In this document: positions 45,116 through 57,035 of the stretch, one piece after another
Position numbering within the stretch: position 1 is the first letter of the stretch
How the letters are laid out: every line of letters starts with the position of its first letter
From: Acidilutibacter cellobiosedens
GTDB lineage: Bacteria; Bacillota; Clostridia; Tissierellales; Acidilutibacteraceae
Length of the DNA stretch: 64,000 bases
Assembly: GCF_004103715.1 (NCBI RefSeq)
Contig: NZ_CP035282.1
Coordinates: forward strand, 3,248,501-3,312,500
Direction: 5' to 3'
Program-made: the position numbers and the translations under genes
The notes under the pieces: model-generated
What the model saw: the letters and a program-made list of their open reading frames with translations, nothing else
Database searches by the model: none
What the model was told of the DNA's origin: nothing

Positions 45116-45757
45116 TTACCTCTTTTTATTCATTAATTGCTCTAACCCTGCTTCGGATGTTAGCTCTTCAAGATTATTAAATATTTCCTCTTCGCTCCAG
45201 TTCCACCATTGAAGCTTTAGCAAGAATTCAATCTTTTCGTCACTAAAACGTTTTTTGATAAACTTAGCTGGATTTCCACCATATATTGTATATGGCTCAA
45301 CACTTTTCACTACTGTTGAATTAGCGGCAATAATCGCACCATCACCAATTATAATGCCTGGAATAATAGTTGCATTTTGACCTATCCAGACATCGTTACC
45401 AATCACTGTGTCACCCTTAAAAGGAAGTTGTTCAATTGCAGGAGTTACTTTTTCCCATCCACAGCCAAAGATATTAAAGGGATAGGTCGTAATCCCATCC
45501 ATTCTGTGATTTGCACCATTCATAATAAACTTAATATCCTCTGCAATTGCACAGAACTTGCCTATTATTAGTTTATCCCCTAGAAATTCGTAATGATGCT
45601 CTATATTATCATAAAATTTTTCAGGAGATTTATTATTGTCGCTGTAATAAGTGTACTCACCAATCTCAACATTTGGTCTTTTAGGTAGATTGCTTATATA
45701 GCAAACCGTCTTTATATTTTCATTCGGATAAAGCTTTTTCTTATCTGGCCCCGTCAT
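45116..45757 (-). CDS. Vat/CatB-type xenobiotic acetyltransferase
   Basis: 213 residues, left-handed beta-helix of hexapeptide repeats (VIGNDVWIGQNATIIPGI, IIAANSTVV). The catalytic loop is NGANHRMDG with His84, and the tail LQWWNWSEEEI is typical of Vat (streptogramin A acetyltransferase) and CatB proteins. It acetylates a hydroxyl on a drug in the cytosol; the drug is inferred from family. It overlaps the nucleotidyltransferase gene by 4 nt and sits downstream of the mef-type gene. A 3' fragment is duplicated at 41.6 kb. Confidence 0.88.
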   Translation of the reverse strand: MTGPDKKKLYPNENIKTVCYISNLPKRPNVEIGEYTYYSDNNKSPEKFYDNIEHHYEFLGDKLIIGKFCAIAEDIKFIMNGANHRMDGITTYPFNIFGCGWEKVTPAIEQLPFKGDTVIGNDVWIGQNATIIPGIIIGDGAIIAANSTVVKSVEPYTIYGGNPAKFIKKRFSDEKIEFLLKLQWWNWSEEEIFNNLEELTSEAGLEQLMNKKR

Positions 45758-46593
45758 TGAATATGGACTCCTTTCAGGTATTCAACCTCATTTACTAGTC
45801 TTTGAAGAATCTCTATTCCTTTTCTTGTACAATCTACATCAGTTGATATTAAGGAAATAACCTTATCGACCCTTTCCTTGTAATCGCTTGGCTTGATCTT
45901 AAAATCTTCAATCATCTTAACAGCCTTTTTTTCATTTATACAGTATTCTTTATTTATTGCAAACAAGACTTGATTAAGGGAAGATATGCTTCGAAAGCAA
46001 TGTCCGCAAACATAGGATACATCGTCTTTATCAATATTGTTCTCAGCAAACATTAAAGAGAAACCTGCCTCAAACATAAAAAATTCAGTTAATCCCTTCT
46101 GCAAAGCGGTTGGATAACGTTCTGCTTGCTTTTTAAACTCATAAAAGTTTTCATCATTAGCATATTGTATCTTGCTGATCGCCAATTCTCCACGATACAT
46201 AGCACTTATATAACCATGTGGATGCCCAGTCTGATAATTGGCAGTAACACTTCCTTGCTCCGTATCTTTGATTATTTGTTCCACCCGTTTTATATCACGT
46301 AAAATCAAGTCAACATGATACCCGTTTATAACTAACCATCCGCCACCATTAATCCAATCACCCCACGCTCCGGGAGGTACAACAAGGTCGATTCTATTCT
46401 CATCATCCAATTCTGTAGCAATTTGATTAATCGCTGTCAGGTCAAATGATTCTGAATTGTAATAGATTCCTATATCTATATCAGAATCCTCTGTATGGGT
46501 ACCTCTTGCACGGGAACCCCCTAATACGATGCCTTCTATATAAGGCAAAGAGGATAATTTTTCTGTCACTGATTGAATAATATTATCTATCAT
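45754..46593 (-). CDS. aminoglycoside-type nucleotidyltransferase domain protein
   Basis: 279 residues. The nucleotidyltransferase core is LGGSRARGTHTEDSDIDIGIY (24-43) with Gly-Ser and Asp38/Asp40; a third acidic residue lies in YHVDLIL. The C-terminal helical domain contains FFMFEAGFSLMFAENN and resembles the DUF4037/ANT accessory region. It could adenylylate a drug, but related proteins act on other targets, so specificity is unknown. It lies between mef and vat-like genes in one operon. Confidence 0.8.
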   Translation of the reverse strand: MIDNIIQSVTEKLSSLPYIEGIVLGGSRARGTHTEDSDIDIGIYYNSESFDLTAINQIATELDDENRIDLVVPPGAWGDWINGGGWLVINGYHVDLILRDIKRVEQIIKDTEQGSVTANYQTGHPHGYISAMYRGELAISKIQYANDENFYEFKKQAERYPTALQKGLTEFFMFEAGFSLMFAENNIDKDDVSYVCGHCFRSISSLNQVLFAINKEYCINEKKAVKMIEDFKIKPSDYKERVDKVISLISTDVDCTRKGIEILQRLVNEVEYLKGVHIQ

Positions 46594-46611
46594 ACGAACA
46601 CACCCTTTATT

Positions 46612-47829
46612 TTATTTTGCATCTAATTTTCTAATCTCAGTTATCATTGGGCAAACTATTGCAATGCAAATAATTAAAATACCTGATAGTAAAAACCAAT
46701 GATTTACACCGATTTTATCAGCAAAGAATCCAGAAAGAATTAACCCAATTGGCATAGCAAGAGACATGATACTTCCAGTTAAAGAAAATACACGTCCTAA
46801 ATATTCAGGCTTAATTTTCTCCTGAAAAAGAGCTGTTTGCACACCGCTGTAAAACGGAACCGAAAGCCCCATTATTGCACAGCAGACTACAAATATGAAA
46901 AATCCACTTTGAGGAAGTAATCCTGAAATGGTTAAGCTTATCCCCATCATAAAAATTGATGCCATTATTAATAAGATTCGCTTTTGGTAATTCCCAAATA
47001 ACCCTAATAATAGACCCCCTATCAACATACCAGAGGCATAAGCAATCTCCGTAATAGAAATATGCATCGGTGTACCATTAAAATATTCCATAGTGATTAA
47101 AGGATATAATGCATTTATGGGCATATAAACAAACATATATAATGTTCCAACGAGTAATAAAGCAAATAATCCTTTATTTTGCCGTAGTACAGCCATTCCT
47201 TCTTTCATTTCTCCTATGAAATTTGGTTCCAAACTTTGCACTTGATCACCCAGCTTAGGAATACGTACAAGTGCTACCGTAATAGATGCAATCACAGCAC
47301 CCAATACATCGATGGCAATAATAGCATTTAAATTCCAAACGGAGTATAGGAATGCTGCAACTGCTGGACTAACAATATAGCTTATAGACTGCAAAGACTG
47401 ACTATAGCCTGCGCATTTCGTCAGCTGTTCTTCTGGTACTAAAAGTGGCGTAACCGCATTGAGTGCTGGGGTATGAAAAGCTGTTCCAATGCTACGGATA
47501 AACAATACTATCATAACTATCCAGACAGGTAGCTCCATATACAATGCAACAATAGCAAGCACTGCCCCAGCTGCTGCGATGATTAAATCAGCACCAATCA
47601 TTATCTTCTTCCTATCATGACGATCCACTAGCACACCAATCGCAGGTCCAAAGACCGCATAGGGTAAAAAACCTACTAGTGAAGCCATAGACAAGACCAT
47701 CGCAGATCCTGTTTTTTCTGTAAGGTAAAAAATAATCGCCATTTGCAGGATAGCACTAGTGATTAATGATACTGCTTGCCCTGCCCATATTGTATAAAAC
47801 TTAAGTTCCCAATTGTTGTATTTTCCCAT
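46612..47829 (-). CDS. mef: MFS efflux pump of the macrolide-efflux Mef group
   Basis: 405 residues, the exact length of Mef proteins, with twelve membrane segments. The start MGKYNNWELKFYTIWAGQAV and later SPAVAAFLYSVWNLNAI and VDRHDRKKIMIGADLIIAAA agree closely with Mef(A)/Mef(E) as I remember them. It pumps macrolides out using the proton gradient. In streptococci mef is followed by an ABC-F gene; here a nucleotidyltransferase and two acetyltransferases follow. A leader ORF and attenuator hairpin precede it, as in known inducible mef operons. Confidence 0.9.
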   Translation of the reverse strand: MGKYNNWELKFYTIWAGQAVSLITSAILQMAIIFYLTEKTGSAMVLSMASLVGFLPYAVFGPAIGVLVDRHDRKKIMIGADLIIAAAGAVLAIVALYMELPVWIVMIVLFIRSIGTAFHTPALNAVTPLLVPEEQLTKCAGYSQSLQSISYIVSPAVAAFLYSVWNLNAIIAIDVLGAVIASITVALVRIPKLGDQVQSLEPNFIGEMKEGMAVLRQNKGLFALLLVGTLYMFVYMPINALYPLITMEYFNGTPMHISITEIAYASGMLIGGLLLGLFGNYQKRILLIMASIFMMGISLTISGLLPQSGFFIFVVCCAIMGLSVPFYSGVQTALFQEKIKPEYLGRVFSLTGSIMSLAMPIGLILSGFFADKIGVNHWFLLSGILIICIAIVCPMITEIRKLDAK

Positions 47830-47882
47830 TTATATTATCTCCTCCATATTATTTTGCTTGAATTTCTATTTTGAATAGCATT

Positions 47883-47954
47883 CTAGGCAATAAAAAATGC
47901 AGGCCAAAATCCACAATGTGGCTTTTGGTCTGCATACATACAATTTGGAAACAT
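47883..47954 (-). promoter_or_regulatory. leader ORF and attenuator upstream of mef
   Basis: A 23-codon ORF (MFPNC...KPHCGFWPAFFIA) is encoded across a strong terminator: stem ATGCAG-CCAAAA-CCAC/GTGG-TTTTGG-CTGCAT (47897-47935) followed on the minus strand by TTTTTT (47897-47892). It lies 54 nt before mef. Ribosome stalling on the leader could melt the hairpin and permit read-through, the usual mechanism for such genes; that is inference. No strong ribosome binding site precedes the ORF. Confidence 0.6.
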
Positions 47955-48048
47955 TCATATTAAAGACATAGTTAAATAAAGCTATAGTTAAATGTTTTAT
48001 ATCTCACTGTAACTAATGAATGCTCAATATCGTATAAATAAGCATAAC

Positions 48049-48085
48049 AAAAAAGCCTATCATCGGGGATAGATTCTGCTTTTTT
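48049..48085. terminator. bidirectional terminator upstream of the mef leader
   Basis: AAAAAAGCCTATC-loop-GATAGATTCTGCTTTTTTT, with T-runs in both directions. It probably ends transcription from the XRE gene at 48264 on the minus strand; it could alternatively be a second leader attenuator. Confidence 0.6.
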
Positions 48086-48263
48086 TATTGCCAGCTTATC
48101 TTAAACGCATTGAGGCTGTCATAGTTTCGTTTCCTCCTAAACTCTTATTTGTATCAGCATATATTTTAACACAATAAGTCGTTTTAAACAACGTTTAAAA
48201 TTGAAAAAAAGCCATGGACAGTACAACAAACATATACATCCCAGGAAGATAATATTGATTTAA

Positions 48264-48854
48264 TTATAGATTACCTGAATATACCGATAAGCCATGCTTA
48301 ATACAATAAACAAATAGTTTGCCACCGGTGGTTATAGGAAACCTACAAGTTGGACTTTGTTCTGGGTACAAGCGATTTAGAAATACTCTGTCACTTTTAA
48401 CATAGGCCACAAAAGAAAGATAATGATCTTTGGTCATTGGATGGTCAAAAGTGGCAAAGTAATCAGTATCTATTTCCTCTACCGTGATTTTTGGTGCAAT
48501 AGTTGCAACAGTAGGCAAGATACGTTCTAATTTTCTTCCGCAGCAGAAGATAGAGGCACTTCCTGTGCTCACCAAAATATTGCCACAGGAAGGACAGACA
48601 TAAAAACGTACTTTATCAATATTGCCGCTATCTGGCTTATTTGATGTAATTTCACCCTCCATCATCTGTTTCATATCAACACCCAAAATAGCGGATAGTT
48701 CCGGCCACAACGACAGATCAGGACAGCCTAAACCACATTCCCATTTTGAAACCGTTTTATTTTGAATACCCAGTGCATCTGCAACATTTCTCTGGGTAAG
48801 GTTTTTTTCCTTTCGTAGTTTGGCAATTAATTTTCCTATTTTCACACAGTCCAT
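48264..48854 (-). CDS. XRE regulator fused to a desulfoferrodoxin-like domain
   Basis: 196 residues. HTH at 5-62 (LTQRNVADALGIQNKTVSKWE). Residues 87-105 carry a complete desulforedoxin-type iron site CPSCGN...CCG (Cys87, 90, 104, 105). The rest resembles a superoxide reductase domain: HPMTKDHYL gives His138 and His144, and YCIKHG gives Cys184 and His187 at the family spacing, but the usual EKHVP histidine is replaced in ERILP. This suggests an iron-based redox or superoxide sensor controlling transcription. Function inferred from motifs. Confidence 0.82.
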   Translation of the reverse strand: MDCVKIGKLIAKLRKEKNLTQRNVADALGIQNKTVSKWECGLGCPDLSLWPELSAILGVDMKQMMEGEITSNKPDSGNIDKVRFYVCPSCGNILVSTGSASIFCCGRKLERILPTVATIAPKITVEEIDTDYFATFDHPMTKDHYLSFVAYVKSDRVFLNRLYPEQSPTCRFPITTGGKLFVYCIKHGLSVYSGNL

Positions 48855-48890
48855 GCCATCACCTCCATTTCTCTTTAGTATATCATAATA

Positions 48891-50930
48891 CTACATGAAC
48901 CTTGCGATTATTTGTACCAACCTTGCTGGAAGCTGCCTCAAATCGGTTATATCCAATGTATTTTCAGCTCCATAAAGTTCTCGGATAGCCTCCTTATCCT
49001 GCCCAATGGCGGCAGCAAGGAATTGTATGCCTTTTCGCCTAAATTCCTGCAAAGTATCTTTCATATCACACGCTGCCTTTTCACCTGAATAATCAGGCAT
49101 AGCTTTAGGCTGCCCGTCACTGATGCTGATTATTAATTTGGTTCTTTGGGGCGTATTAAGCAATCTATCGGAAATAATGCGCAATGCCATGCCATCCCGA
49201 TTGTTGCTGCGAGCCTGAATGTTCATAAGAGCATATTTTTCATCTGCATCTTTGCTTTCAAAGTCTACATAGGCATGGATGGACATTTGCTCCAGCTTGG
49301 AGCGGTCTGCTGTATCCCCGTAGACCATGATTGGAATACCGCATCTTGTGCAAAATTCATACAAGGCAACAGCAGCTTGCTTTGCAGCTTCTAATCGGCC
49401 AAAGGCTGACATCGAAGCTGATTCATCAATCCTGAGAGCAACCGCAATAGAGGGTTCTTCCTCAGGCGGACGCTTGCGGGCAAATGTGCGAAAATCCATA
49501 GAAGCAACCTGAGCCGCGCAAAATTTTGTGCCATACAACCTCGATTTCGCGAATTCAGCAGATAATTCATGCTCCAACAGCGGATTTGTTTTTCTGATTA
49601 ATTCCCGAATAACTGGCATTAAAGTTGTCATCATACGGTTATACTCTTCCTTGTTCTGGTAGGTAACTTCCGGACGATGGACAATCAGCTTAATATTTTC
49701 ATGGACACTTCCTTGAACACTTTGCCGTGCTTCCCTGTTCAACTGTTTACGAAATTCTTTTTTTTGTAATTCGGTTGTATCTGATTTATCGAGCTCATGA
49801 TAGAATGGAGTGCCATTTTCCCCATTATCATTGCTTGAAATATCAGTATTTTCATCACTGCTCGTATCAGAATGCCCCTCACTGTCTTCTGATTTTCTCA
49901 GATGCACTGCATTTTTATCAGCTTGATCTGTCTTGGCAGAGAATTCTCCGTTTTCGGAAATATTAAGTTCCATTACTTCAGAATTTTCTCCGTCCTTTTG
50001 CGATTGACATATGTGATCCATTTCCTCAAGCTTTTCTGTCAAGCCATGACTAGCCAGTGCCTGCTCTAAAATAACAAGCTCCTGCGGATCGGTCGTGATT
50101 TTGTATAACACCTTATAATATAAACTTTTTTGGATTGAGGCACCACTTTGAACGGCATCCACCCAAAAGATATAGGAACGCATACCGGCCACACCTTTAA
50201 TGGCATTGGCGCGGGCTGTCTCATCCAGCACCATAATCGTTTCAGCTAAAAGAGATAGTACAGGTTCAGATTCATAACCGGTCTTAGCTTTAACCCGCTC
50301 CATCATCACTTCTTTAGGCGGTAAATCTAGTTTTTCTGCATGCTGCACTCGATCTCGCAAAGCTTCATTTAAGGGCCGGAAGCCATTGTAACCGCGGTTT
50401 GTTGTGATAACCGCAATAAAATCAGGGTGACGATGCGCGATACGAGTTGGCAAGTTTAGACTGCCATCTGGTTCTAATGCGGAATTTAGCGCCATTAAAA
50501 CAGCAGCATCCCGAATCACTGTCGGTTCCTGAATCTCCAAGAGCCATCCATTTTCATATGCACGAACAATTTCAGAAGGATAATAGCGATATTCAACCTT
50601 ATCAGAATGACCATCTTCTTCTGACAGCACCGGAAGAATCGAACCCAGGACATCGGATTTATCCATATCTGCAAAACAGGTTACTTTCGTATAAGGCAGG
50701 TTAAAATCAGCAGATAAAGCTTTGGCAATCTGGGTTTTCCCCGAACCAGCATCCCCCTCCAGCAAAATGGTGCTGATTTTCATTTCACCGCGATTCCAAT
50801 TTCTTACTACTTCTTGATATATACGTTTTTCTGCTTCACTCTCAATATGTGAAGGTGGTTTTTGCCAGACAAGGGACTTCTCCTCTTCTGATAGCTGTCT
50901 GGTAGGTGATAAAATACTGGTTTGTTTCAT
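48891..50930 (-). CDS. MoxR-like AAA ATPase with C-terminal VWA domain
   Basis: 679 residues. AAA module with Walker A GDAGSGKT (59-66), an EIQEPTVI Walker-B-like strand, ITTNRGYNGFRPLNEAL sensor and arginine region. An acidic Ser/Asp-rich linker (about 330-400) leads to a VWA domain whose MIDAS begins RIDESASMS and ends with ISDGQPKAMPD. Such single-chain MoxR-VWA proteins act as chaperones for metal insertion or complex assembly. Two small genes precede it and overlap or abut, so the three are one unit. Client unknown. Confidence 0.87.
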   Translation of the reverse strand: MKQTSILSPTRQLSEEEKSLVWQKPPSHIESEAEKRIYQEVVRNWNRGEMKISTILLEGDAGSGKTQIAKALSADFNLPYTKVTCFADMDKSDVLGSILPVLSEEDGHSDKVEYRYYPSEIVRAYENGWLLEIQEPTVIRDAAVLMALNSALEPDGSLNLPTRIAHRHPDFIAVITTNRGYNGFRPLNEALRDRVQHAEKLDLPPKEVMMERVKAKTGYESEPVLSLLAETIMVLDETARANAIKGVAGMRSYIFWVDAVQSGASIQKSLYYKVLYKITTDPQELVILEQALASHGLTEKLEEMDHICQSQKDGENSEVMELNISENGEFSAKTDQADKNAVHLRKSEDSEGHSDTSSDENTDISSNDNGENGTPFYHELDKSDTTELQKKEFRKQLNREARQSVQGSVHENIKLIVHRPEVTYQNKEEYNRMMTTLMPVIRELIRKTNPLLEHELSAEFAKSRLYGTKFCAAQVASMDFRTFARKRPPEEEPSIAVALRIDESASMSAFGRLEAAKQAAVALYEFCTRCGIPIMVYGDTADRSKLEQMSIHAYVDFESKDADEKYALMNIQARSNNRDGMALRIISDRLLNTPQRTKLIISISDGQPKAMPDYSGEKAACDMKDTLQEFRRKGIQFLAAAIGQDKEAIRELYGAENTLDITDLRQLPARLVQIIARFM

Positions 50931-50931
50931 A

Positions 50932-51396
50932 TTAATATAACTCCAATTCTTCTAAAATTCGGTTAAGCACCCGCTTGCGTTCTCCAATTATTTCTCCTAA
51001 ATCATTTAAACTTTGAGCAAATGCTTTGATGTCCTCATTGATATTTTGATTGTCTACACACACTTCTACTGGTAATACCCCACCTTGTACTCCAACTCGT
51101 TCCACTGTGGGTTTTTCCGGGTCATATAAAAGGGGGAGTCGGTAAGCCTCCTTGAAGTAAAGCAATGTCCTGGACAAAAAAATCATCAAATCAAATATTT
51201 GATGGATGGGTAGCTCCTGGGCCAAAATCAATTCACCATCTTTATCGTTTTTCCAAATCTGTGCGGCAATCTGCATTTTTTTATTTTCTTCCAGCATAGG
51301 CGCACCTAGCGTTAAACGTTTGATGTCAGATTGATAAGCATTTCTGCCATCTATACGCTCATAACCATTTGACACCATAACAACTTTTTCATTCAT
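50932..51396 (-). CDS. conserved hypothetical protein of the AAA-VWA operon
   Basis: 154 residues starting at ATG 51396 (GGAGG, 8 nt). No membrane segment or signal peptide. The sequence begins NEKVVMVSNGYERIDGRNAY and is alpha/beta in character. I do not recognise its family. It lies 1 nt upstream of the AAA-VWA gene and overlaps the GIY-YIG gene by 4 nt, so its product probably works with the ATPase. Confidence 0.75.
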   Translation of the reverse strand: MNEKVVMVSNGYERIDGRNAYQSDIKRLTLGAPMLEENKKMQIAAQIWKNDKDGELILAQELPIHQIFDLMIFLSRTLLYFKEAYRLPLLYDPEKPTVERVGVQGGVLPVEVCVDNQNINEDIKAFAQSLNDLGEIIGERKRVLNRILEELELY

Positions 51397-51740
51397 CGCC
51401 ATATCCTCCTTGCATTTGGATCAGCAGCGATACACTGTTCTCTCAAACTTTCTAATTTTGCTGTATGATCTTCACGTGGGTCATCATACTTTAACACTTT
51501 AATAACTGATAGTTCAAAGCCTTCAGAGCCATATTTGTTCCAGAGTTCCTGTAATCGTTTATTAGGATGCCAGTTGGCTGCCAATTTCATATTAATGCTG
51601 TTAAAGTCTGATTTTGTATCTTTGGAAATACCCAAAAATACCTCGCCAGTTTCTTTACAACGGTAAGATATTACTCCCATTTCAGGATGTCTGTTTTTAT
51701 AAGCTTCTAAAAGCTCTTTTTTTCTTTTTGTATCCATCAT
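51393..51740 (-). CDS. GIY-YIG-like nuclease-fold small protein
   Basis: 115 residues from the ATG at 51740 (GAGGTGAAA). It reads GVISYRCKETGEVFLGISKD and NMKLAANWHPNKRLQELWNKYG, a degenerate GIY-YIG core in which GIY has become GVISY and YIG reads FLG, with a conserved-type Arg/His region. The fold is likely but nuclease activity is doubtful. First gene of the three-gene unit with the AAA-VWA protein. Confidence 0.75.
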   Translation of the reverse strand: MMDTKRKKELLEAYKNRHPEMGVISYRCKETGEVFLGISKDTKSDFNSINMKLAANWHPNKRLQELWNKYGSEGFELSVIKVLKYDDPREDHTAKLESLREQCIAADPNARRIWR

Positions 51741-51961
51741 TTTCACCTCGACTCTAGTATAAAACAATGTATCTCAAAATATAATCCACGCTCCGTAGAC
51801 TATATGAATCCAAAATTATCCAATAGACAGTATTTTATAAAAATAGTAGCTTGTGCAACTTGCCGTTAAGTTTTTTCAATTTCCTGTATGACATAAGCAT
51901 TATAAAAACGAAAAGCCGCCAATCAAGAGCTGTTTCCCTAAATCAGCGGCAAGCCTTATAT
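51741..51961. other. spacer with no gene seen
   Basis: Upstream of the GIY-YIG gene. It should hold that unit's promoter; no reading frame or known element is evident. Confidence 0.4.
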
Positions 51962-52154
51962 CTAATTTTCTATATCTATTGCAATACTTGACTTAAATTC
52001 CACCTCAATTCTGTCATCATGCACCGTAACCCTTTCAATAAGCCGCCTTACTAATTGCTCATCATATTTCTCCAACTCGCAAGATTGTTCATTCAAGAAA
52101 TCAGTCATTTCAGCGATTCGTTGCCTTTTCCCTTCTCGCTCTGCATTCTCTACT
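51962..52154 (-). pseudogene. C-terminal tail of a large serine recombinase
   Basis: The minus strand encodes RQRIAEMTDFLNEQSCELEK and DEQLVRRLIERVTVHDDRIE, then VEFKSSIAIDIEN and stop, the usual end of TndX-type recombinases. The upstream part has been removed exactly at the IS630 fragment (TA junction near 52154). Confidence 0.75.
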
Positions 52155-52276
52155 ATATAAATTACAATGGCAAATAGCTAAATCCTCTTAGTGAAAAGCT
52201 TAACATATATATGCACATAGTTTTTTAACTTACCCTTGTTTTTATTTATAGAGCAAAGATAAGATTGAATCTGATT
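52155..52276 (-). mobile_element. fragment of an IS630 element (one end)
   Basis: Starts TATAAATTACAATGGCAAAT and matches the left 120 bases of the IS630 copy at 42865 with about 90% identity, then stops where another element has inserted. Confidence 0.85.
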
Positions 52277-52979
52277 TATAGATAAACAACTTGGATGTTA
52301 AAATTTACTTGTATACTTATGTCTACCTCATCTGATACAATTAATATCAGAGAGGAGAATGTAATATGGCAAGAAAATGTGTTGAAGTCAAAACTTTACA
52401 TGGATATACAATTGAAAATCTTAATGAGATTGAGAAAAAACTTAAGAGTGATTACTCAAAATCATTAATAAGGGCAGTTATCATGAGATATCAAGGCATT
52501 CATACATCTGTTGTCGCAAAAACAATTGGCAAATCTGTACCGTCAGTTACTATATATATTAATAGATGGAATGAATCAGGTATAGATGTCGCTGCCGATC
52601 TTCGTGGTGGCAGTGTAAGTACTTTTAACAACGAAATGCTTGATGACCTAAAAGATACTGTTATTAACAAAAATCCAAGAGAATTAGGGTTTACCGCAGC
52701 CACATGGAATACCCATATGCTCAAACAATATATTGCTGAAAAATATGGCTTAGAGTATTCTTCTGAATGGATACGACAATTGCTTATTAGATTAGGCTTT
52801 TCCTATAAAAGGGAATTATATCAGCCAACAAAGGCAGCCCCTGAACTACAGGCACTGTTTAAAAAAAATAGCTGACCTCTTGGATATTGTTGAGAATACA
52901 GAGGATATCTGCCTTTTCGCTATGGACGAAACAGGCATACGGCTTGAATCTAAAAATCACTATTCGTTGTTTATCTATA
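52277..52979 (+). mobile_element. deleted IS630-like element nested in the IS630 fragment
   Basis: Perfect 14-bp ends TATAGATAAACAAC (52277-52290) and complement (52966-52979), including TA at both edges. It contains only the 5' part of a transposase of a different IS630 group. The catalytic half is missing, so it is a non-autonomous, MITE-like derivative. Confidence 0.75.
52366..52965 (+). pseudogene. truncated IS630-group transposase
   Basis: Begins MARKCVEVKTLHGYTIENLN after GAGAGGAG. HTH and RNase-H-entry sequence are present; after LQALFKKNS a stop occurs, and the reading continues one base shifted past an eight-A tract with ADLLDIVENTEDICLFAMDE (first catalytic Asp). The gene then hits the element end. 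Confidence 0.8.
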
Positions 52980-56135: not shown

Positions 56136-57035
56136 ATGTTAACATCAATTATGATAGGAAATAAAATTAAAGAAGCTCGAAAAGAGAAAAAATTATCTCA
56201 AGCCCAACTTGCGCAACGACTATCCGTCAGCTCACAAGCGGTTGGAAAATGGGAGCGCGGAGAATCGATGCCGGACATCATTACTTTTAACCAGCTCGCG
56301 GAAATCCTGGGTGTTGATTTAAACTATTTCTCTGAGAGCTTCCAATCAGCAATCGCCAAAAAAGCGTCTGCTGATTCATCGGTTGAGCAATCAGTCGAAC
56401 TGCCGCCCGAAAATGAAAATAAAAAGCTCGGTTGGGATATGTCAAGCGAAAATTGGGTGGATGCAGACTTTTCCGGATTAAAAAATCCGCATGGAAAATT
56501 TAGCTCTGCCAACATGCAGCGATGTCTTTTTATCGGTTCAGAGATGGCGGGGCTTCTGCTGAAAAGCAACAGTGTAAATAGTTGTGACTTCTCAAACTCC
56601 GACATCAGCAGCAGCCGCATTCAGAGTTCGGATATAATAAATAGTAAATTTCGGAACTGTTCATTAAAAGAAGTTGAGTTTTCTGGGAGCCGTATCAAAG
56701 GCTGCGATTTCTCTGATGCCGATTTTACGGGAGCGGCCATCAAATCTACTGAACTGTTAAAAAGTATAGTTACTGGTGCAGTCTGGAATAATACCACCTT
56801 TTATGCCGCACAGTTTAACGATATTGTTTTTGACGGCACATTTAACGATTGCTCTTTTGAAAACTGCGACTTTGCCAAGCTGACATTCCAAAATGCAGCG
56901 CTTATTAACACTTTCTTCAAGGGTAAGAGACTGAAGCGGATTCGGTTTATCGACTGCAAAGCAGACAGAATGACTTACGCCTTTTTGAAAAACGGGAAGG
57001 CGGACATGACCGGTATCACGTTATTAACACCATAA
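56136..57035 (+). CDS. XRE regulator with pentapeptide-repeat C terminus
   Basis: 299 residues. HTH at about 8-62 (LSQAQLAQRLSVSSQAVGKWE), linker, then A(D/N)F-type pentapeptide repeats from about 105 to 285 (CDFSNSDISSSRIQSSDIIN, SFENCDFAKLTF). The repeats fold as a square beta-helix and could mimic DNA or bind a partner. It is followed after 14 nt by an ABC exporter, which it probably regulates. Confidence 0.87.
   Translation: MLTSIMIGNKIKEARKEKKLSQAQLAQRLSVSSQAVGKWERGESMPDIITFNQLAEILGVDLNYFSESFQSAIAKKASADSSVEQSVELPPENENKKLGWDMSSENWVDADFSGLKNPHGKFSSANMQRCLFIGSEMAGLLLKSNSVNSCDFSNSDISSSRIQSSDIINSKFRNCSLKEVEFSGSRIKGCDFSDADFTGAAIKSTELLKSIVTGAVWNNTTFYAAQFNDIVFDGTFNDCSFENCDFAKLTFQNAALINTFFKGKRLKRIRFIDCKADRMTYAFLKNGKADMTGITLLTP

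Follow-up and report, generated by a model that had tools for sequence, protein, structure and literature searches.

An XRE-family regulator built on a decayed superoxide reductase, with a candidate operator at fixed distance from the -10 box, in a horizontally spread operon of Bacillota

Proteins in which an N-terminal helix-turn-helix (HTH) is followed by desulforedoxin and superoxide reductase (SOR) modules were catalogued in SORGOdb in 2011 as the HTH-Dx-SOR class, with 19 members (PMC3116461). The text of that paper gives the class no operator, regulon or function, and a search of open-access papers found no characterised HTH-Dfx regulator. TrtA of T. denticola is not of this kind, judged by the description in its own paper. 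In the homologous enzymes, centre I holds its iron in a rubredoxin-like Fe(Cys)4 site (PMC3116461). Among known redox regulators, WhiB7 is an autoregulatory, redox-sensitive activator that acts immediately upstream of the -35 element and is tied to antibiotic resistance (PMC3905903). SoxR, which senses redox by means of iron, controls an MFS efflux pump, and the SoxR box lies between the -35 and -10 elements (PMC4411124).

The protein analyzed here is encoded by Acidilutibacter cellobiosedens within the window, by which we mean the whole 64,000-nucleotide stretch under analysis. It shares the HTH-Dx-SOR layout, with an HTH_3 domain at residues 10-61 and a desulfoferrodoxin fold at residues 80-194; its architecture is therefore not new, but its SOR site lacks the first histidine, and its cysteine spacing is X13. 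With desulfoferrodoxin, or 2Fe-superoxide reductase (1dfx, 2ji1), it has in common the fold, the Cys4 site and four of the five SOR ligands, whereas the added HTH, the incomplete Fe(His)4(Cys) site and a score under the NCBIfam cut-off set it apart. The likeness to WhiB7 lies in autoregulation, a site just upstream of -35 and a link to antibiotic resistance, as well as in redox sensing and activation, both of which we infer for this regulator, and the likeness to SoxR in an iron-based redox sensor placed over an MFS efflux pump; both are analogies. WhiB7 belongs to the unrelated Wbl family, with the Wbl fold and a C-terminal AT-hook, and SoxR carries a MerR-type HTH and a box between -35 and -10, in contrast to the XRE HTH, desulfoferrodoxin fold and candidate operator upstream of -35 found here. 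The regulator may work like either of them without kinship to either. The candidate operator, its fixed promoter geometry and a predicted list of redox and pump targets are new for HTH-Dx-SOR regulators. The regulator and its sites are located as follows.

48264..48854, minus strand: XRE-desulfoferrodoxin regulator, 196 aa (ORF, HMM and fold)
48672..48827, minus strand: XRE helix-turn-helix, residues 10-61 (Pfam HTH_3, E 3e-10)
48540..48596, minus strand: desulforedoxin-like Cys4 site, Cys87 to Cys105, CX2C-X13-CC (four ligands in 72/72 relatives)
48492..48494, minus strand: Pro121, where the first SOR histidine has been lost (placed by five-ligand relatives, 17 residues ahead of His138)
48294..48443, minus strand: remaining SOR-site ligands His138, His144, Cys184 and His187 (ligand census)

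A sequence-only reading of this DNA had described the gene as an XRE regulator carrying desulforedoxin and SOR-like iron sites. The open reading frame is real, with 196 codons on the minus strand, and the XRE domain is recovered by Pfam. Family models see the remainder of the protein faintly: Desulfoferrod_N matches weakly at residues 84-110, and the NCBIfam desulfoferrodoxin model TIGR00320 matches residues 81-189 with E 6e-11, its 42.7 bits falling short of the curated cut-off of 146.9. In a phmmer search, desulfoferrodoxins of the PDB were matched at E about 2e-8. Structure prediction by AlphaFold2 with 31 family members gave a model with pLDDT 85.6, for which desulfoferrodoxins were the best Foldseek matches (E 6e-9). 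Residues 80-194 take the desulfoferrodoxin fold, with a VIA Z score of 12.9 to 1dfx and an rmsd of 3.1 over 115 residues; the VIA rows are mostly HTH proteins, and the lack of other folds among them is uninformative. The SOR-like fold that the earlier reading had anticipated is thus what is predicted, and the resemblance it noticed is not due to chance.

All eight ligand residues named in that reading are present, namely Cys87, Cys90, Cys104 and Cys105 of the desulforedoxin centre and His138, His144, Cys184 and His187 of the SOR site. The cysteine spacing CX2C-X13-CC is two residues shorter in its long gap than that of canonical desulfoferrodoxin (CXXCX15CC). One histidine ligand is missing, as had been claimed, but the loss was misplaced: it is not at ERILP (residues 110-114) but at Pro121 in 'APKITVEE'. 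The alignment of EKHVP to ERILP is ruled out by five-ligand relatives, which place the first histidine (His1) 17 residues before His138, in the segments 'EHEVT' of L065 and 'EHEIT' of L070. Ala120 occupies the position where SOR has the lysine preceding this histidine (EKH); among the relatives keeping His1, only L066 has that lysine. The five-ligand centre II, Fe(His)4(Cys), was looked for and found incomplete, with Pro121 in place of the first histidine, and the regulator is therefore not classed as a superoxide reductase.

A ligand census over 72 relatives, non-redundant at 95%, shows how differently the two sites are conserved. Centre I reads CCCC in 70 and CCCH in two. In the SOR site, His2 is kept in 72/72 and His3 in 67/72, the axial cysteine in 65 of 71 and the last histidine in 54 of 71, while His1 is found in 21 of the 72. 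All five SOR ligands occur together in 16/72 only, and some relatives have one or two. In the tree, the window protein falls in a supported clade of 40 rows that all lack His1, and supported branches require the His1 label to have changed at least twice; the ligand loss is a trait of a whole clade, not a peculiarity of the window protein. These counts identify the Cys4 site, together with His2, as the conserved metal site of the family and indicate that the SOR site is decaying as a whole. The window protein is a regulator built on a decayed SOR. One relative with all five SOR ligands (L117:5899-7146) lies on a contig labelled phage; its long C-terminal extension resembles a GNAT domain by eye, with no confirming family match.

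The regulator is the last gene of an operon whose genes all run in the same direction, in the order p124, DUF6530, AAA-VWA and regulator.

48891..50930, minus strand: AAA_5-VWA protein, 679 aa, in the regulator's operon (Pfam; conserved order)
50932..51402, minus strand: DUF6530 protein, 156 aa (Pfam, E 2e-48)
51393..51740, minus strand: p124, GIY-YIG-fold protein, first gene of the operon (AlphaFold2 pLDDT 91.7; I-TevI match E 1e-4)
51756..51761, minus strand: -10 hexamer TATACT (promoter geometry)
51779..51784, minus strand: -35 hexamer TTATAT, abutting the candidate operator (promoter geometry)
51785..51799, minus strand: candidate operator TCTACGGAGCGTGGA, palindrome TCTAC-N5-GTRGA (alignment, motif searches and geometry)

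The AAA-VWA gene is separated from the downstream regulator ORF by 36 bp. No sign was seen of a promoter of its own, which the sequence-only reading had implied for it; there is one operon, with the promoter before the 124-aa gene. The predicted structure of p124 has the GIY-YIG fold of I-TevI (pLDDT 91.7; Foldseek E 1e-4), and since an Asp stands by eye at the position of the I-TevI catalytic Arg, p124 may be a non-catalytic relative. Although strongly conserved, the p124 family has no match in Pfam or NCBIfam, and DUF6530 is not mentioned in the literature searched. Among 87 regulator loci, p124 is present in 41, AAA-VWA in 37 and DUF6530 in 34. p124 directly precedes the regulator in L020, L030 and L065 among others, which suggests that these two genes may be the older pair. 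An anti-phage defence system was considered and rejected: PADLOC returned only generic HTH and AAA matches and a homing-endonuclease match to p124.

When the DNA before p124 was aligned from 37 loci, one nearly invariant block, GTCTACGGAGCGTGGATTR, stood out between poorly alignable flanks. It contains the palindrome TCTAC-GGAGC-GTRGA, and this candidate operator precedes p124 in 36 of the 37 loci. A degenerate form, TCTAC-N5-GTAGR, is found before the regulator's own gene in relatives without p124, down to about 35% protein identity; with up to two mismatches it occurs there in 28 of 41 such relatives, compared with 1.7% of shuffles. A clear operator before the own gene is missing in some relatives (L045, L046, L056 and L136). 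The distance from the palindrome to the -10 box is exactly 23 bp in 34/36 operon promoters and 26/34 own promoters (60/70 together). The procedure for picking -10 boxes favoured 23 bp in ties, but without any picking, the mean TATAAT match likewise has its sole peak at 23 bp in each promoter set. With this distance, the palindrome abuts a -35 hexamer followed by a 17-bp spacer, and its centre lies near -43. The -35 is poor in many of these promoters (TTATTT or TAGNNN, for example); the operon promoter of the window, whose -35 TTATAT is likewise poor, was not listed by a generic sigma-70 scan.

The 19-base block has a single site in the window at three mismatches, and the operon is the only convincing site for the palindrome in the window's genome, where a search at 2 mismatches gave three further matches against two in the control, none beyond chance. 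No redox gene thus appears to be under the regulator's control in this genome. Across the phylum, TCTACGGAGCGTNGA was found in 5/299 genomes, all five among the 20 with the regulator (p 8e-7, genome relatedness ignored). The exact motif was also found in 11 of 100 genomes of relatives, nine of which have the regulator (p 6e-7, again ignoring relatedness). In one motif-bearing genome, G380, p124 is cut by the contig end. In another, G340, the exact motif is present and no regulator was detected in the genome; there the operator (L164:1501-1515) follows a Mef-type gene and precedes a small ORF and a nucleotidyltransferase gene, not p124. The regulator is the gene common to p124 operons and to loci without p124, which makes it the best candidate for the protein that binds the operator. 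The regulator on a desulfoferrodoxin body, as proposed earlier, is well supported, and the DNA site that it probably reads is now mapped.

A site search over 35 regulator-bearing genomes at 2 mismatches returned mostly noise, from which sites were retained only if a -10 lay 22-24 bp away. The predicted targets so obtained, all with the -10 at 23 bp, are FMN_red-like genes located elsewhere in regulator-bearing genomes (L196, L206), an FMN_red-like gene near the regulator in L083, Mef-type MFS genes in L012, L035 and L037, and a TetR gene in L168. The FMN_red-like proteins have a compact Cys motif that seems akin to the one in iron-sulfur flavoproteins. Neighbouring genes have a similar flavour: the regulator has an FMN_red gene next to it in L127 and L129 and a flavin reductase gene in L135, a flavodoxin gene lies near L056, and a CatA-type acetyltransferase gene overlaps the regulator in L148. 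The flavin-related and resistance genes among neighbours and targets are suggestive of function, on a predicted target list that is short.

Taken together, we propose with moderate confidence an autoregulatory XRE factor that binds beside -35, most likely as an activator, and senses through the Cys4 site of its desulfoferrodoxin body. The XRE domain would bind TCTAC-GGAGC-GTRGA directly upstream of -35, and from this geometry the protein bound near -43 would most likely activate RNA polymerase. Lambda cI at OR2 is an activator of this kind, sitting directly upstream of -35 at fixed spacing and touching sigma region 4. The desulfoferrodoxin body would be an enzyme turned sensor, in which redox would probably be read by the near-invariant Cys4 metal site, and the drifting SOR site is presumably non-catalytic. 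A redox change or loss of the metal would alter the regulator and thereby switch the p124-DUF6530-AAA/VWA-regulator operon; in relatives, the switched targets would be the regulator itself, FMN-reductase genes or Mef-type efflux pumps. A redox signal is suggested by the rubredoxin-like centre I of the homologous enzymes and by the flavoproteins among basal targets. The redox sensor of the earlier reading is accordingly plausible, with a near-invariant Cys4 site and FMN-reductase genes among the predicted targets of basal relatives.

The signal could also be of another nature. If the Cys4 site were a structural zinc or iron site, the domain would serve only as a dimerisation or ligand-binding body, and the regulator would respond to a drug, a metabolite or a partner such as the AAA-VWA protein. 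Strong conservation, with CCCH in two relatives, would fit this as well, and the mobile clade often has resistance genes nearby; the rubredoxin-like iron of the homologous enzymes (PMC3116461) and the flavin and FMN reductase genes among targets and neighbours speak for redox instead, and we regard a structural site as a possible but somewhat unlikely account. A rather unlikely alternative is that the same protein acts on the same operator as an autorepressor, which would block -35 and hold down operon expression until oxidation or loss of the metal site. Autorepression is common among XRE proteins, and a site abutting -35 would suit a repressor too. However, a repressor does not need an exact distance to -10, whereas the 23-bp distance persists in very divergent promoters, and the poor -35 boxes in many of them suit activation; an autoregulatory activator is therefore favoured.

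The earlier proposal that an iron cage lacking one ligand senses superoxide appears improbable. The four remaining ligands are kept in the window protein and most close relatives, but the first is Pro121, and the close relatives L029, L033, L037 and L047 have lost more ligands with the rest of the protein kept, so the drifting SOR site is not the conserved sensing feature. The fold and four of five ligands would also fit an active superoxide reductase with an incidental HTH, a reading rejected as very improbable on the missing histidine, the missing lysine before it and a separate canonical desulfoferrodoxin encoded in the window's genome.

Downstream of the operon, the following elements form a resistance cluster.

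47890..48119, minus strand: mef(A) leader, a separate control element (Rfam RF02862, 249.8 bits)
46612..47829, minus strand: mef(A)-type macrolide efflux gene, co-mobile cargo (NCBIfam Mef(A), 873.6 bits, cut-off 675)
45754..46593, minus strand: nucleotidyltransferase-domain protein, co-mobile cargo (Pfam NTP_transf_2)
45116..45757, minus strand: Vat-family streptogramin acetyltransferase, co-mobile cargo (NCBIfam, 309.4 bits, cut-off 300)

The block 45116-52155 is found at about 92-96% DNA identity, in one or two pieces, in Heyndrickxia (Bacilli), Lutispora, Anaerotignum and others. Just upstream of it, several of these genomes have a recombinase-like ORF, which by our reading of its residues would be a large serine recombinase. 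Such identity in distant hosts, several with the recombinase-like ORF, points to recent horizontal transfer. Genes for mef(A), msr(D), the nucleotidyltransferase and the Vat-family protein come after the operon in several transferred loci. The window cluster 45116-47829 is without the msr(D)-type ABC-F gene that is present between mef(A) and the nucleotidyltransferase gene in L001, L004, L007 and L015. An IS630-family transposase fragment is located at 52366-52875, just past position 52155, where the conserved block ends. The Rfam family sRNA_1300 ('Enterococcus sRNA 1300') is matched over its full length in the interval from the regulator gene to mef(A); the matched DNA has a short ORF, MTASMRLR, and probably serves as an attenuator leader and not as an independent sRNA. 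Inclusion of mef(A) in the operator-driven operon of the window is unsupported, as its own leader intervenes, though read-through is possible; with its own leader, mef(A) is not simply driven by the operon.

On a broader and doubtful view, a retired SOR joined to XRE could be a Bacillota counterpart of WhiB7 and SoxR, a redox-reading activator of which one clade, with His1 lost, turned into a mobile regulator that governs a GIY-YIG-like/DUF6530/AAA-VWA stress operon and Mef-type pumps, travelling between distant hosts with macrolide-streptogramin resistance genes. In any case a catalogued and apparently uncharacterised class gains a DNA site, a promoter geometry and a short target list, which makes its function directly testable. 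If the redox reading is true, this would be an iron-based redox regulator of mostly anaerobic Bacillota, from a family distinct from SoxR and WhiB7 and derived from a former superoxide reductase, with one clade physically linked to mobile macrolide-streptogramin resistance. Elsewhere in the window, an XRE HTH fused to pentapeptide repeats with Qnr-like matches is encoded at 56136-57035, just upstream of an ABC transporter pair.
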